Below are positions 41,773 to 48,229 of a stretch of DNA of 49,348 nucleotides, in pieces. The notes beneath the pieces are model-generated. The model made no database searches and was not told the origin of the DNA. It worked only from the letters and a program-made list of their open reading frames with translations. Location of the stretch: assembly GCA_028699155.1 (NCBI GenBank), contig JAQVVD010000008.1, positions 1-49,348 on the forward strand. Direction: 5' to 3'. The position numbers and the translations under genes were made by a program. Each line of letters opens with the position of its first letter. Positions within the stretch are counted from its first letter, which is position 1. Origin of the DNA: Candidatus Peribacteraceae bacterium. GTDB taxonomy: Bacteria; Patescibacteriota; Gracilibacteria; Peribacterales; Peribacteraceae.

Positions 41773-42123
41773 TCAGGACAACGACCATCCCAAGAATGCT
41801 AGTATTGTGACGATGGCTGCGATGAGATAGATAGGCTGTGTAACGATCTCCCACAGCTTTTTGTACGGAGGCATTGCTGGGTCTTTCTTTTGCTCATTGG
41901 CTTCGTACATTTGCATAGCAGTATTTTGCACTTTTTCTCGCAATGTTATCCGACTTCCGTACTGGATTCCGTCAATTATCTTAATCTGCTCAGCTGTGAG
42001 TTTACTTCGTATTTCCTGTGATAGGAATTCCTGGCTATTCTTCAAAGTGGAAGCAGTATATAGAAAAACTAAGAGATCCACATACAATGAATTTTCAGAT
42101 AAGTCTTTTATTCCTGAACGCAA
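41773..42123 (-). CDS. Small C-terminally anchored protein, hypothetical
   Basis: 116 residues. A helical soluble N-terminal part (LVFLYTASTLKNSQEFLSQ, IRSKLTAEQIKIIDGIQYG, LREKVQNTAMQMYEANEQ) is followed by a single membrane helix at the C-terminus (IYLIAAIVTILAFLGW). Its base composition is AT-rich like the adjacent GIY-YIG gene, whose 3' end it overlaps by 29 bases, suggesting coexpression. No family recognised; the start is uncertain because a later Met is absent and no ribosome binding site is clear. Confidence 0.6.
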   Translation of the reverse strand: MRSGIKDLSENSLYVDLLVFLYTASTLKNSQEFLSQEIRSKLTAEQIKIIDGIQYGSRITLREKVQNTAMQMYEANEQKKDPAMPPYKKLWEIVTQPIYLIAAIVTILAFLGWSLS

Positions 42124-42331
42124 ATCCAGAAGAACTCTTCAAATATCTCTCAAAATCCAGTGCTTTCTCCTTTGATTTAAACGCAGCAAAGAAGATCAAT
42201 TCTTCTAGTTCGATGCGTGATGTAGTAGGTGATGAATGATTCTTGTGCCTCGTGAGCCTCTTTTCTAGGTTTCGTGTGAATCCGGTGTAGTGCTGCCCGT
42301 TTTTGAGTTTGAGGATATAGACGTAAAACAT
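42095..42331 (-). CDS. GIY-YIG domain protein (putative endonuclease)
   Basis: 78 residues. GIY-YIG motif as FYVYILKLKNGQHYTGFTRN (VYI for GIY, YTG for YIG), then LEKRLTRHKN, and the conserved SKEKALDFERYLKSSSGFAFRN with its Glu. It belongs to the same small UPF0213-like group as the gene at 13271, but is not closely identical. TACAAT (42340-42345) lies 8 nt before the ATG inside the 14-base sequence shared with the other copy. The gene is in the AT-rich island downstream of tRNA-Val. Confidence 0.87.
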   Translation of the reverse strand: MFYVYILKLKNGQHYTGFTRNLEKRLTRHKNHSSPTTSRIELEELIFFAAFKSKEKALDFERYLKSSSGFAFRNKRLI

Positions 42332-42459
42332 AGCGTACGATTGTAACAGAAAAAGCCCCACTTCGCTCTGCGAAGAATTGCTGCTGGTTCCATGGCATCT
42401 GTGATAGTTTCTATTTGAGTTTGGGCAGAGCTACGCGGGGCACACTTCGCGGTGGCAGT

Positions 42460-42737: not shown

Positions 42738-42791
42738 TTCGCCGCAGGAATGTAGCAAGTCCTCTTCCTTTTGGGAAGCAGGATTGCCAGA

Positions 42792-43442
42792 ATGATTCCT
42801 ATGGCTTTCTCTCCGCTGGATTTCGTTTTCCCAAAGCGCTCCCTCACGGGGGCGGGGGAGGGAATGTTCTTCACAGAGGAAGACGTGCGTGTCCTGCGGC
42901 CGGATCCTGTGTGCGAGGAGTGCGATGCGCTGCGCCGGCGCGGACTCCATGCCATTGATTGCATCCGAGCCGCGATGCCGTACCATGCCTCGTTGCTCGT
43001 GAAGAAGGCCGTGCATACGCTCAAGTATCGGCGTATCCCCGGGGTCGCAGAACATCTTGGCGGATTGCTTGTGGAGGGATGCTCTTCTTCTCTTCCTCCT
43101 TCTTGTGTCCTCTGCCCCGTGCCGCTCCACTGGACGCGGCGTTTCTGGCGCGGATTCAACCAGGCGGAGCTCCTTGCCGCCGTGGTGGGCGAACGTACGG
43201 GGCTCCCGGTGCAGCGCCTCCTCCGCCGCGCGCGACCCACGGGGTCGCAGGCGCGGCGCAACCGCTGCGAGCGCCTCACGGCGCTCGCAGGGGCATTCCG
43301 TGTCTGTGCCGTTCCGTTGCCACGATGCGTCGTGCTGATCGACGATCTCGCGACGACAGGCGCGACGCTCGATGCTTGCGCAGTGGTACTCAAAGAGGCG
43401 GGTGTGCAACGTGTGGAAGGATGGGTCATTGCGCACGGATAA
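42792..43442 (+). CDS. comF: ComF-family phosphoribosyltransferase-like protein
   Basis: 216 residues. N-terminal zinc-ribbon remnant with Cys residues (DPVCEECDAL), then LVKKAVHTLKYRR, LCPVPLHWTRRFWRGFNQAELLA, the central QARRNRCERL, and the PRPP-binding loop VVLIDDLATTGATL. ComF/GntX proteins act in DNA uptake, at the cytoplasmic side, in competent bacteria; the ligand is uncertain. The first Cys pair of the usual four-Cys ribbon is missing, unlike typical ComFC. The start may instead be 42801 (MAFSPLDF). The upstream region contains the partial tRNA copy. Confidence 0.88.
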   Translation: MIPMAFSPLDFVFPKRSLTGAGEGMFFTEEDVRVLRPDPVCEECDALRRRGLHAIDCIRAAMPYHASLLVKKAVHTLKYRRIPGVAEHLGGLLVEGCSSSLPPSCVLCPVPLHWTRRFWRGFNQAELLAAVVGERTGLPVQRLLRRARPTGSQARRNRCERLTALAGAFRVCAVPLPRCVVLIDDLATTGATLDACAVVLKEAGVQRVEGWVIAHG

Positions 43443-44765: not shown

Positions 44766-46227
44766 CGCCGTTCTCGTGCCGGCGGTCGTCCTTCGGGACA
44801 AGGGGGATTCTTCCTCGCCCCAGGACCTCTGGCTCGCGATCCTCAAGCAGATCGAGCCAAAGCTGCCGCGCGGTCAGTTCATTACATGGTTCAAAGATAC
44901 CGCACTTCTCTCGCGCGATGGCGGAACGGTCGTAGTCGGTCTGCCTCTTCCCATGGCGCTCAACTGGCACATGGAGAACTACCGCGCCATGACGATTGAG
45001 GCGGCACGATCCTGTGATGCCACTATCGAGAAGATTGCGTACAAGGTGGATGGCGGGCTCAAGGATAATCGTGAGAGGTCCTTTGATTTGCTGGAGCATT
45101 TTCCGGAGAAGAAGCGCCGCAAACTGCCCGGGCGCCAGGAAGTGAAAATGGCGGAGGGCATTGTCAGCAAGATTCTGAATCCCCACTACTCACTGGAGAG
45201 TTTCGTGGTGGGTTCCAACTCACGCCTCGCACACGCCGCATGCCAGGCGGTTGCGGCGCATCCGGGCGACAAGTACAACCCACTCTTCATCTACGGAGGG
45301 GTGGGACTCGGCAAAACGCATCTGCTGCAGGCGACCGGCAACGCGATCTTGAAGCAGATGCCCAAGGCAACTGTGGTCTACACGACAACCGAAGACTTCA
45401 CTAATCAGGTGATTGAGGCGATCCGTTCCCAGAAGATGGAGCAGCTCCGTCGGCGCTATCGCTGCGTGGATGTGCTCATTATTGATGACGTGCAGTTCCT
45501 TGCGAACAAGGAGCGCACGCAGGAGGAGTTCTTCCACACGTTCAATGCGCTCTACGAAGACTGCAAGCAGGTGATTCTCTCGGCGGACCGCCCCCCGCAG
45601 GAACTGCAGCTGGAAGATCGCCTGACATCGCGATTCGAACGCGGGATGATTGCGGACGTCTCTCCGCCGGACTACGAGACGCGGCTCGCGATTCTCGCGG
45701 AGAAGGCCAGGGAGTACGAGCTCTTCATCGACATGTCCGTCCTGCAGTTCATCGCGGAACACACGACGCGCAACGTGCGCGAGCTGGAGGGGATCCTCAT
45801 GCAGGCATTCGCGCAGTATGAGCTCGAACAACGCATGCCGACGGTCAAGAGCATCGCGGAGATTATGCGTAAGCTCAGTAAGGATCCGTACGAGGAGGAA
45901 GAAGTCGTCGGGTTCCAGGTTCCGCCCAAGCGCGCCGCGACGTTCCAGGATGTCCTGGAGGAGGTGAGCCGCTACTACTCCGTCTCGGTCAATGACATGA
46001 TCGGGGCTTCGCGCGTACGCGAGGTTCTGCTGCCGCGGCAGATTGCCATGTACCTCGGCAAAACGTACTTGCGGATGAGCTACGTGCGACTCGGACAAAT
46101 GTTCAGTAACCGCGACCACACGACGGTGATGAATGCGATGAGCAAGATCGAGAAGAAGATGCAGGATGATCCGCAGCTTCTCAGAGAAGTGCGGGCTATT
46201 GAGCAGGAGTTGGGTTTTGGGCGGTAG
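44743..46227 (+). CDS. dnaA: Chromosomal replication initiator DnaA
   Basis: 494 residues from this ATG. Domain I (DLWLAILKQIEPKLPRGQFITWFKD) is followed by a short linker and the AAA+ core: Walker A YGGVGLGKTHLLQ, Walker B VLIIDDVQFLANKERTQEEFF, sensor/box VII regions and LTSRFERGMIADV. Domain IV binds DnaA boxes and ends with the family signature YLGKTYLRMSYVRLGQMFSNRDHTTVMNA. It opens oriC. The start overlaps the end of rseP; a GTG at 44776 is an alternative because the first residues are Ser-rich and poorly conserved. A pair of DnaA-box-like repeats lies upstream of rseP. Confidence 0.95.
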   Translation: MTSSPSSSAVLVPAVVLRDKGDSSSPQDLWLAILKQIEPKLPRGQFITWFKDTALLSRDGGTVVVGLPLPMALNWHMENYRAMTIEAARSCDATIEKIAYKVDGGLKDNRERSFDLLEHFPEKKRRKLPGRQEVKMAEGIVSKILNPHYSLESFVVGSNSRLAHAACQAVAAHPGDKYNPLFIYGGVGLGKTHLLQATGNAILKQMPKATVVYTTTEDFTNQVIEAIRSQKMEQLRRRYRCVDVLIIDDVQFLANKERTQEEFFHTFNALYEDCKQVILSADRPPQELQLEDRLTSRFERGMIADVSPPDYETRLAILAEKAREYELFIDMSVLQFIAEHTTRNVRELEGILMQAFAQYELEQRMPTVKSIAEIMRKLSKDPYEEEEVVGFQVPPKRAATFQDVLEEVSRYYSVSVNDMIGASRVREVLLPRQIAMYLGKTYLRMSYVRLGQMFSNRDHTTVMNAMSKIEKKMQDDPQLLREVRAIEQELGFGR

Positions 46228-46279
46228 GAGGCAGCCGGAATCTCTTGCTTCAGAGGTGTATCACTCCTACACTCTTCTT

Positions 46280-46342
46280 GTGATTTCTTTGCGCACTCCC
46301 ACCACTACGACGACTACCTTCCTCCAGAAGGGGAGCTGTTAG
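46280..46342 (+). CDS. Threonine-rich leader peptide of thrS
   Basis: 20 codons from a GTG start to TAG. Codons 6 and 8-13 are Thr (ACT, then ACC ACT ACG ACG ACT ACC), seven in an eight-codon window, using three different Thr codons. An in-frame GTG at 46256 is an alternative start. Ribosome binding is unclear: AGAGGTG lies 22 nt upstream of the first choice. The arrangement before an attenuator hairpin and thrS matches leader peptides that sense charged tRNA-Thr. Confidence 0.7.
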   Translation: MISLRTPTTTTTTFLQKGSC

Positions 46343-46406
46343 TGGATCATGCGTGCCAGACGTACCGAGAACAGTTTGCCCCTTCCAGAGACCGGAAGGG
46401 TTTTTT
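46322..46406 (+). promoter_or_regulatory. Attenuator of thrS: antiterminator and terminator
   Basis: Terminator: CCCTTCC (46380-46386), a 7-nt loop, GGAAGGG (46394-46400), then TTTTTT (46401-46406). Antiterminator: 46322-46333, within the leader's last codons, pairs with 46379-46390 at 10 of 12 positions, taking up the terminator's left arm. A ribosome stalled on the Thr codons leaves 46322-46333 free; one reaching the leader stop covers it. Confidence 0.75.
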
Positions 46407-46444
46407 GAAATCTTGTTCCTCTGCTACTGTTCACCCGTATCCCT

Positions 46445-48229
46445 ATGGCACATTCCCATCCATCAAAAGAACTCGAGAGCATTCGCCACAGCGCGGCGCA
46501 CGTTCTCGCACAGGCGGTCCAGAAGCTCTACCCGGATACGCAGATCACCATCGGGCCGCCGATCGACTACGGGTGCTACTACGATTTCCTCTTCAAGAAG
46601 CCGATTTCTGATGAGGATTTCCCGAAGATAGAGAAGGAGATGCGTGCGATCATCAACCAGGGGCAGACGTTCGAGGTGGAGTCGCTTGCGATCAAGGATG
46701 CCATCGCATACTGGAAGAAGAAGGGGCAGACGTTCAAAGTGGAACTCATCAAAGATCTGGAGAAGGAGGGCGTGAAAGAAGTGACGCTCTACAGGAACAT
46801 CGGGAGAGACGGCAAGGAAACATTCGTCGATCTCTGCCGCGGCGGCCACGTGCAGAGTACGAAGGACATCCCCGCCGACGGATTCAAAATTCTCAGCCTC
46901 GCCGGCGCCTACTGGCGCGGCGATGAGAAGAATGCGCAACTCACGCGCATCTACGTTGCAGTTTTTCCTTCCAAGGAGGAACTCAAGGCGCATTTGTCCA
47001 TGGTCGAGGAGGCGAAGAAACGCGACCACCGCAAGCTGGGGAAAGAGCTGGATCTCTTTAGTTTGCATGAAGAAGGGCAGGGGTTCCCGTTCTGGCATCC
47101 GCACGGGACGGAACTGTTCGTTGCACTGCAGCAGTGTCTGCGCGAAAAGAATCGCGCGCATGGGTACACGGAAATCATGACGCCCATGATTCTCAACCGT
47201 CAGCTCTGGGAGCAATCCGGGCACTGGGATAAGTTCCGCGAGCACATGTACTTCACGGATATTGACGATGTAGTTCATGCGGTAAAACCCATGAACTGCC
47301 CCGGCGGGCTGGTCATTTTCCGCAATGAGCAGCATTCCTATCGTGATCTGCCCATTCGGCGTGCGGAATTCGGGTACGTGCATCGCCATGAGAAGTCCGG
47401 CGTGCTGTACGGTCTCTTCCGCGTGCGTGCGTTCACGCAGGATGATGCGCATGTGTTCTGTACTGCTGAGCAGCTCAATACAGAGATCACCGATATGGTC
47501 GATTATGCCATGGAGGTGTATAGCCAGTGTGGGTTTCATGAGTATGAAATCTTCATTGCCACGCGCCCAGAACAGTTCATTGGCGAGGAGAAGGATTGGG
47601 AGCGTGCGCAACAGGCGCTGGAGCATGCGCTGTGGCAGAAGGGTCTTGCCTTCGGTGTCAAGGAAGGTGAGGGGGCGTTCTACGGACCGAAGATCGAATT
47701 CAACATTCGTGATTGCATCGGGCGTAACTGGCAGTGCGGTACGATACAGGTGGATTTCTCGATGCCGAAACGCTTGGGTGCGGTGTTCATTGATGACCAG
47801 AATTCCAAGCGAACGCCCATTATGCTGCATCGCGCAATTGTTGGTTCTCTCGAACGGTTCATTGGCATTCTCATCGAACATTTTGCCGGGCTCTTCCCGC
47901 TCTGGCTGGCGCCCGTGCAGGCGGCGGTCCTGCCGCTCGCCGCGGCGCACGCGGAGTACGCGCAGTCCGTTTTTGCAGCACTCAAGGAGCAGGGGATGCG
48001 CGTGCAGTACATGGATCCGGAGGAATCGCTCGGCAAGCGCATCCGCGAAGGAGAGAAGATGAAGATTCCGTACCTGCTCGTGCTCGGCGACCAGGAGGTG
48101 AAGGATACGTCCGTTTCCGTCCGTAACGTGAAGACCAAGCAGCAGGTCACGGTGCCGCTCCAGGAATTCATCGGGAAGACGGTGGCGGATATCAGGGGGC
48201 GCATGCTGGAGGCTTCGATTGGCTCATAG
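46445..48229 (+). CDS. thrS: Threonyl-tRNA synthetase lacking the TGS domain
   Basis: 594 residues; E. coli ThrS has about 640. The N-terminal TGS domain is absent: the protein starts in the editing (N2) domain with IRHSAAHVLAQAV (HxxxH) and continues to its CRGGHVQST motif. The class II catalytic core follows, with zinc ligands in MNCPGG (Cys) and downstream His residues; motif 2 is FRVRAFTQDDAHVFC, and motif 3 is around PIMLHRAIVGSLERFIGIL. The C-terminal anticodon-binding domain is complete (GKRIREGEKMKIPYLLVLGDQE). Charges tRNA-Thr and clears Ser mischarging. Transcription seems to be attenuated by the upstream Thr leader. Confidence 0.96.
   Translation: MAHSHPSKELESIRHSAAHVLAQAVQKLYPDTQITIGPPIDYGCYYDFLFKKPISDEDFPKIEKEMRAIINQGQTFEVESLAIKDAIAYWKKKGQTFKVELIKDLEKEGVKEVTLYRNIGRDGKETFVDLCRGGHVQSTKDIPADGFKILSLAGAYWRGDEKNAQLTRIYVAVFPSKEELKAHLSMVEEAKKRDHRKLGKELDLFSLHEEGQGFPFWHPHGTELFVALQQCLREKNRAHGYTEIMTPMILNRQLWEQSGHWDKFREHMYFTDIDDVVHAVKPMNCPGGLVIFRNEQHSYRDLPIRRAEFGYVHRHEKSGVLYGLFRVRAFTQDDAHVFCTAEQLNTEITDMVDYAMEVYSQCGFHEYEIFIATRPEQFIGEEKDWERAQQALEHALWQKGLAFGVKEGEGAFYGPKIEFNIRDCIGRNWQCGTIQVDFSMPKRLGAVFIDDQNSKRTPIMLHRAIVGSLERFIGILIEHFAGLFPLWLAPVQAAVLPLAAAHAEYAQSVFAALKEQGMRVQYMDPEESLGKRIREGEKMKIPYLLVLGDQEVKDTSVSVRNVKTKQQVTVPLQEFIGKTVADIRGRMLEASIGS

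Follow-up and report, generated by a model that had tools for sequence, protein, structure and literature searches.

A threonine-rich reading frame between dnaA and thrS

The window, that is, the whole stretch of 49,348 nucleotides analyzed here, carries dnaA, which ends at 46227, directly upstream of a leader region followed by thrS. The features recognized at this locus are as follows.

46245..46273, + strand: putative promoter P1, with TTGCTT (46245-46250), a 17-nt spacer and TACACT (46268-46273)
46280..46342, + strand: leader ORF MISLRTPTTTTTTFLQKGSC, read from the sequence, with a GTG start at 46280 and TAG at 46340-46342
46295..46318, + strand: regulatory codons, seven Thr in eight (ACT CCC ACC ACT ACG ACG ACT ACC)
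46322..46333, + strand: antiterminator 5' arm (segment 2), with the core GAAGGGG (46327-46333) inside the last leader codons
46379..46390, + strand: antiterminator 3' arm (segment 3), overlapping the terminator left arm
46380..46406, + strand: intrinsic terminator (segments 3:4), stem 46380-46400 (-10.8 kcal/mol), T6 at 46401-46406
46422..46430, + strand: candidate second promoter P2, with an extended -10, TGCTACTGT, lying 14 nt 5' of the thrS ATG
46445..48229, + strand: thrS, the regulated gene, encoding threonyl-tRNA synthetase; matches PF00587 and is 93% identical to thrS of a Candidatus Peribacteria MAG

Direct reading of the sequence agreed with the original prediction as to the seven Thr codons in eight and the short frame ending in TAG. 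The start of this frame, initially set at 46256, was replaced by the likely GTG at 46280, because TACACT ends 6 nt earlier and the nearest relative, G033 (thrS 93% identical), keeps the same layout, TACACT-N6-GTG, before its leader MIFLCTTTTTTTTFLRKGSC. According to a whole-genome count, the run of six ACN codons at 46301-46317 is the sole occurrence in the 1.18-Mb genome. Since simple base counts give an expectation of about 0.14 such runs per genome, the weight of the argument rests on comparative evidence. Among the window's other short ORFs that lie 5' of a terminator-like site, none had seven identical residues in eight; the runner-up had six of eight (Ser), and its frame runs antisense to a longer one. 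Comparable leaders were absent before the serS-, glyS-, valS-, ileS-, metG- and pheS-like loci in the window's genome.

Threonine synthase was not found above the cut-off in this genome, which gave one weak partial match. This suggests that the bacterium is probably unable to make threonine and imports it, in which case a switch before thrS would bear on charging, not biosynthesis. Two further ORFs in the window were noted by eye: a small one at 42095-42361 on the - strand (FYVYILKLKNGQHYTGFTRNLEKRL) resembles a GIY-YIG nuclease, and one at 42771-43442 on the + strand, whose start codon is uncertain, is like a ComF-type phosphoribosyltransferase.

Mutually exclusive hairpins in the leaders

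The thrS upstream regions were sampled at 149 loci of the class, at 60 loci of other Patescibacteria and at 79 non-CPR loci. A Thr leader, in each case followed by a terminator, was found before thrS at 42 of the 149 class loci, in ten families (given here as anonymous labels, f1, f2, f5, etc.). It was carried by 16/49 loci in f1, 12/17 in f6, 4/9 in f14, 2/2 in f10, 2/3 in f15 and 2/8 in f22, and by a single locus each in f2, f5, f16 and f29. Families f10, f14 and f22 include genomes reading TGA as an amino acid, with in-frame TGA in thrS. Outside the class, the leader was found in none of the 60 other Patescibacteria, and there was one weak match among the 79 non-CPR loci. The original prediction suggested a comparison with relatives. 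These retain the terminator, the run of Thr codons and the exclusive pairing, but 33 of the 49 f1 loci have no leader. On a thrS tree of 45 sequences, leader presence in f1 required at least nine changes, and its clustering was not significant, although in one genus each of the three members sampled (G028, G194 and G207) has the leader.

In the window, the predicted Rho-independent terminator before thrS was recovered both in the sequence and by a terminator scan. Its hairpin, CCCTTCC-AGAGACC-GGAAGGG, has seven pairs and was the top terminator-like site of the region. The pairing proposed between 46322-46333 and 46379-46390 does hold at 10 of 12 positions. The two hairpins are mutually exclusive, as had been claimed, and relatives keep the pairing with covariation. 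In all 18 leaders first collected, a segment lying 3' of the last Thr codons and 5' of the terminator pairs with the left arm of the latter, and this segment 2:3 duplex is more stable than the hairpin of the terminator. Covariation was tested in two independent sets of leaders by comparing each leader's own arms with arms swapped between genomes in 10,000 permutations. The 2:3 arms of the 18 leaders gave on average -18.3 kcal/mol when paired with their own partners and -13.4 ± 0.74 kcal/mol when swapped; for the 24 independent leaders, these values were -15.0 and -8.9 ± 0.6, and in neither set did any of the 10,000 permutations reach the observed value. The antiterminator pairing covaries across the 42 leaders. 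Not every leader was significant by itself: L049 was indistinguishable from shuffles, and in the second set L233 had no antiterminator and L238 showed no switching.

We then placed a ribosome at different positions and folded the uncovered part of the RNA, using an equilibrium model with an assumed ribosome footprint. Folding of the RNA had been proposed as a check, and in this form it yielded the expected switch. The mean terminator probability was 0.25 with the ribosome stalled at Thr codons and 0.93 with the ribosome at the stop codon, the latter being higher in 18/18 leaders; the second set gave 0.30 and 0.95, with 24/24 leaders in the expected direction. When the stretch between ribosome and terminator was shuffled, the stalled probability rose from 0.12 to 0.80; therefore, the switching is not a trivial effect of a shorter RNA. 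In the window itself, the terminator probability was 0.99 with the ribosome at the stop codon and 0.00-0.03 with the ribosome stalled at any of the first four Thr codons. It was 0.55-0.87 for stalls at the last three Thr codons, where the assumed footprint begins to cover segment 2. Attenuators typically, though not universally, have a 1:2 pause hairpin that synchronizes polymerase and ribosome. The window RNA folds a small CCUUC/GAAGG hairpin, which could be a candidate for it.

Putative promoters of the leader and of thrS

The -35 element of P1 is weak and was missed by a consensus scan. Of the 18 leaders first collected, 14 have a TANNNT motif 5-9 nt 5' of their start (2.0 ± 1.3 in shuffles), and of the 24 leaders of the second set, 14 have it too (5.0 ± 1.9 shuffled). 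In f6, TTGACA or TTGACT is found at several loci, roughly 16-17 nt farther upstream. Shine-Dalgarno-like 4-mers are nearly absent (1/18 and 1/24 leaders). Because its GTG follows the -10 element by 6 nt, the window leader ORF is probably leaderless. A leaderless leader mRNA is the simplest reading for f1, f6, f2 and f15, and the leader ORF looks leaderless in most families. In f14, the TANNNT element was not seen, and the start is preceded by AAGGACAT in one leader and by AAAGACAT, AAGTACAT or AAGCACAT in the others; these leaders may for this reason rely on ribosome-binding sites. In this TGA-recoded family, the Thr leader has been kept (L202, L220, L238 and L247), with a purine-rich stretch before the start, and the N termini of these four leaders are related (MSLAQL, MRLAQL, MRLALL and MSFTQL).

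The original prediction had held that a promoter of thrS downstream of 46406 would refute attenuation. On this point the outcome is ambiguous: a -10-like element recurs there. In all 14 attenuator genomes tested from the window's family, TANNNT occurs 5-15 nt before thrS and 3' of the terminator (3.1 ± 1.6 in shuffles), and 9 of the 14, the window included, have the extended -10 TGNTANNNT (0.14 in shuffles); the nearest relative, G033, has TGCTACTCT at the P2 site. Part of thrS transcription may therefore bypass the switch. It could even be that most thrS mRNA comes from P2 and that the attenuator tunes a minor upstream transcript only, and the leader-less f1 relatives fit this idea, with TANNNT 5-9 nt before thrS in 28 of 33 (4.1 in shuffles), in what looks like a normal leaderless thrS promoter. 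However, when the attenuator is present, the element stands farther from the ATG and at a less constant distance (7-15 nt), the fifth base of the window's P2 is changed (TACTGT versus TACTCT in the nearest relative), and a minor role would not obviously keep covarying arms in ten families. We consider such a dominant P2 possible but rather unlikely. Instead, we propose dual control, in which the attenuator is combined with P2 as a basal promoter, because transcription from P2 would escape attenuation.

In Peribacteria, an extended -10 of the form TGNTAC(T/C)CT is found repeatedly 5-14 nt 5' of thrS (the window, L036, L034, L039, L057 and leader-less f1 loci). It may be the standard leaderless promoter of the lineage, usable for genome-wide promoter mapping.

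Probable control of thrS by attenuation, and other systems

T-boxes and ThrRS-binding operators are both known controls of thrS, and some members of the class carry T-boxes. The leader RNA could accordingly act as a T-box, or as an operator of the E. coli type, in which ThrRS binds a tRNA-Thr-like leader, and not as a translated attenuator. We find this highly improbable: region 45900-46700 matched no Rfam family at E values up to 1, the T-box motif is absent from the window leader, and the conserved features are the Thr reading frame and the 2:3/3:4 pairing. As RF00230 was among the families without a match, a T-box in the window was rejected. In the class, no T-box reached the Rfam gathering score, but seven thrS loci gave lower-scoring matches over the full model (E values of 4e-8 to 0.012), and the T-box core motif was found upstream of thrS at 14 loci. 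Some class thrS loci have a T-box instead of the leader, and many have neither. T-boxes at thrS elsewhere in the class indicate that charge-sensing control acts on this gene in the clade. The T-box-like thrS leaders L172, L176, L186, L194, L198, L204 and L226 score 25.7-47.1 bits, far under the gathering threshold of 93 bits despite matching the full model, and routine Rfam scans would therefore miss them.

That the hairpin merely terminates dnaA, the gene directly upstream, while the Thr run reflects chance, at the low expectation given above, or an unrelated small protein, is scarcely credible and was rejected, being contradicted by the class-wide statistics: among short upstream ORFs with at least five of eight codons for one residue, that residue was Thr at 35 class loci and any other residue at no more than 2, no such Thr ORF was found in the 60 other Patescibacteria or at the 79 non-CPR loci, and Thr leaders also occur where dnaA is not directly upstream and are tied to covarying antiterminators.

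The locus combines a regulatory codon run, an intrinsic terminator, an exclusive antiterminator and a gene for the same amino acid, thrS. It is very probably a ribosome-mediated transcription attenuator that senses tRNA-Thr charging and controls thrS. From these features, we infer the following course of events. The P1 transcript would begin at or beside the leader start codon, and ribosomes would enter at its 5' end. With ample Thr-tRNA, a ribosome at the stop codon would cover segment 2, the 3:4 terminator would form, and transcription would end before thrS. If Thr-tRNA runs short, the ribosome would stall on the Thr codons, leaving segment 2 free to pair with segment 3; the terminator would then not form, and thrS would be transcribed. 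P2, which lies 3' of the terminator, may provide basal transcription of thrS. The threonine attenuator originally predicted before thrS is thus supported by conservation, covariation and folding, with the qualifications that P2 exists as a candidate, that the leader is patchy and that there are precedents elsewhere.

In E. coli, thrABC is controlled by an attenuator with Thr and Ile codons in its leader, and pheST by one with Phe codons. Both likewise have a codon-rich leader peptide, an intrinsic terminator and an exclusive antiterminator, and pheST, like the window system, is a synthetase operon. Unlike these two, the window leader has no Rfam match, has Thr as its only regulatory codons, controls thrS, is probably leaderless and belongs to a different phylum. 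Lopatovskaya et al. (2010, cited in PMC4833913) reportedly surveyed attenuation at amino acid and aminoacyl-tRNA operons, and their survey may include an earlier thrS case. Leader-peptide attenuation of synthetase genes is known for pheST in gamma-proteobacteria and for trpS and leuS in Streptomyces (PMC1262725). The Streptomyces leuS, trpE and ilvB attenuators, several of them transcribed leaderless (PMC8079986, PMC1262725), have a leader ORF and a terminator before amino acid or synthetase genes, as in the window, but they concern other amino acids and are found in Actinobacteria. The predicted thrL of Streptomyces lividans, located at thrS, is leaderless, has only two Thr codons (MKRVRPFLETTPGFVPAR) and lacks an obvious intrinsic terminator (PMC8079986). 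Like the probably leaderless leader peptide of the window, it lies 5' of thrS, but the two may be unrelated, and it is a weak precedent. The T-box riboswitch at thrS (RF00230), present in other families of the class, has the same output, thrS expression following tRNA-Thr charging, but it reads the tRNA directly, whereas the sensor in the window would be the translating ribosome. Exchange between a T-box and a leader peptide at one gene has been described for hisS (PMC2965389).

The original prediction knew of no such example in the CPR lineage. We found no report of leader-peptide attenuation in CPR bacteria in the literature searched, while attenuation of synthetase genes is known outside this lineage, including the predicted S. 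lividans thrS leader (PMC8079986). The mechanism is classical; the host lineage, the class-wide spread and the probably leaderless leader are new.

Little is known, to our knowledge, of gene regulation in the Candidate Phyla Radiation. A class-wide covarying attenuator implies coupled transcription-translation and charge-sensing control in reduced, probably auxotrophic cells. If the attenuator reading is true, Thr-tRNA shortage should raise thrS expression. The leader offers a ready reporter for leaderless translation, and the 42 leaders supply short peptides that annotation pipelines have likely missed. With them, thrS joins genes such as hisS (PMC2965389), at which a T-box and a leader peptide replace one another as the sensor. 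On balance, we favor the view that the leaderless Thr-peptide attenuator is an old and widespread control of thrS in the class, which may have been exchanged with T-boxes and plain promoters between families and, in the family of the window, joined to an internal promoter of the extended -10 type. Such a control would tie the amount of synthetase to tRNA charging in cells that are probably unable to make threonine.
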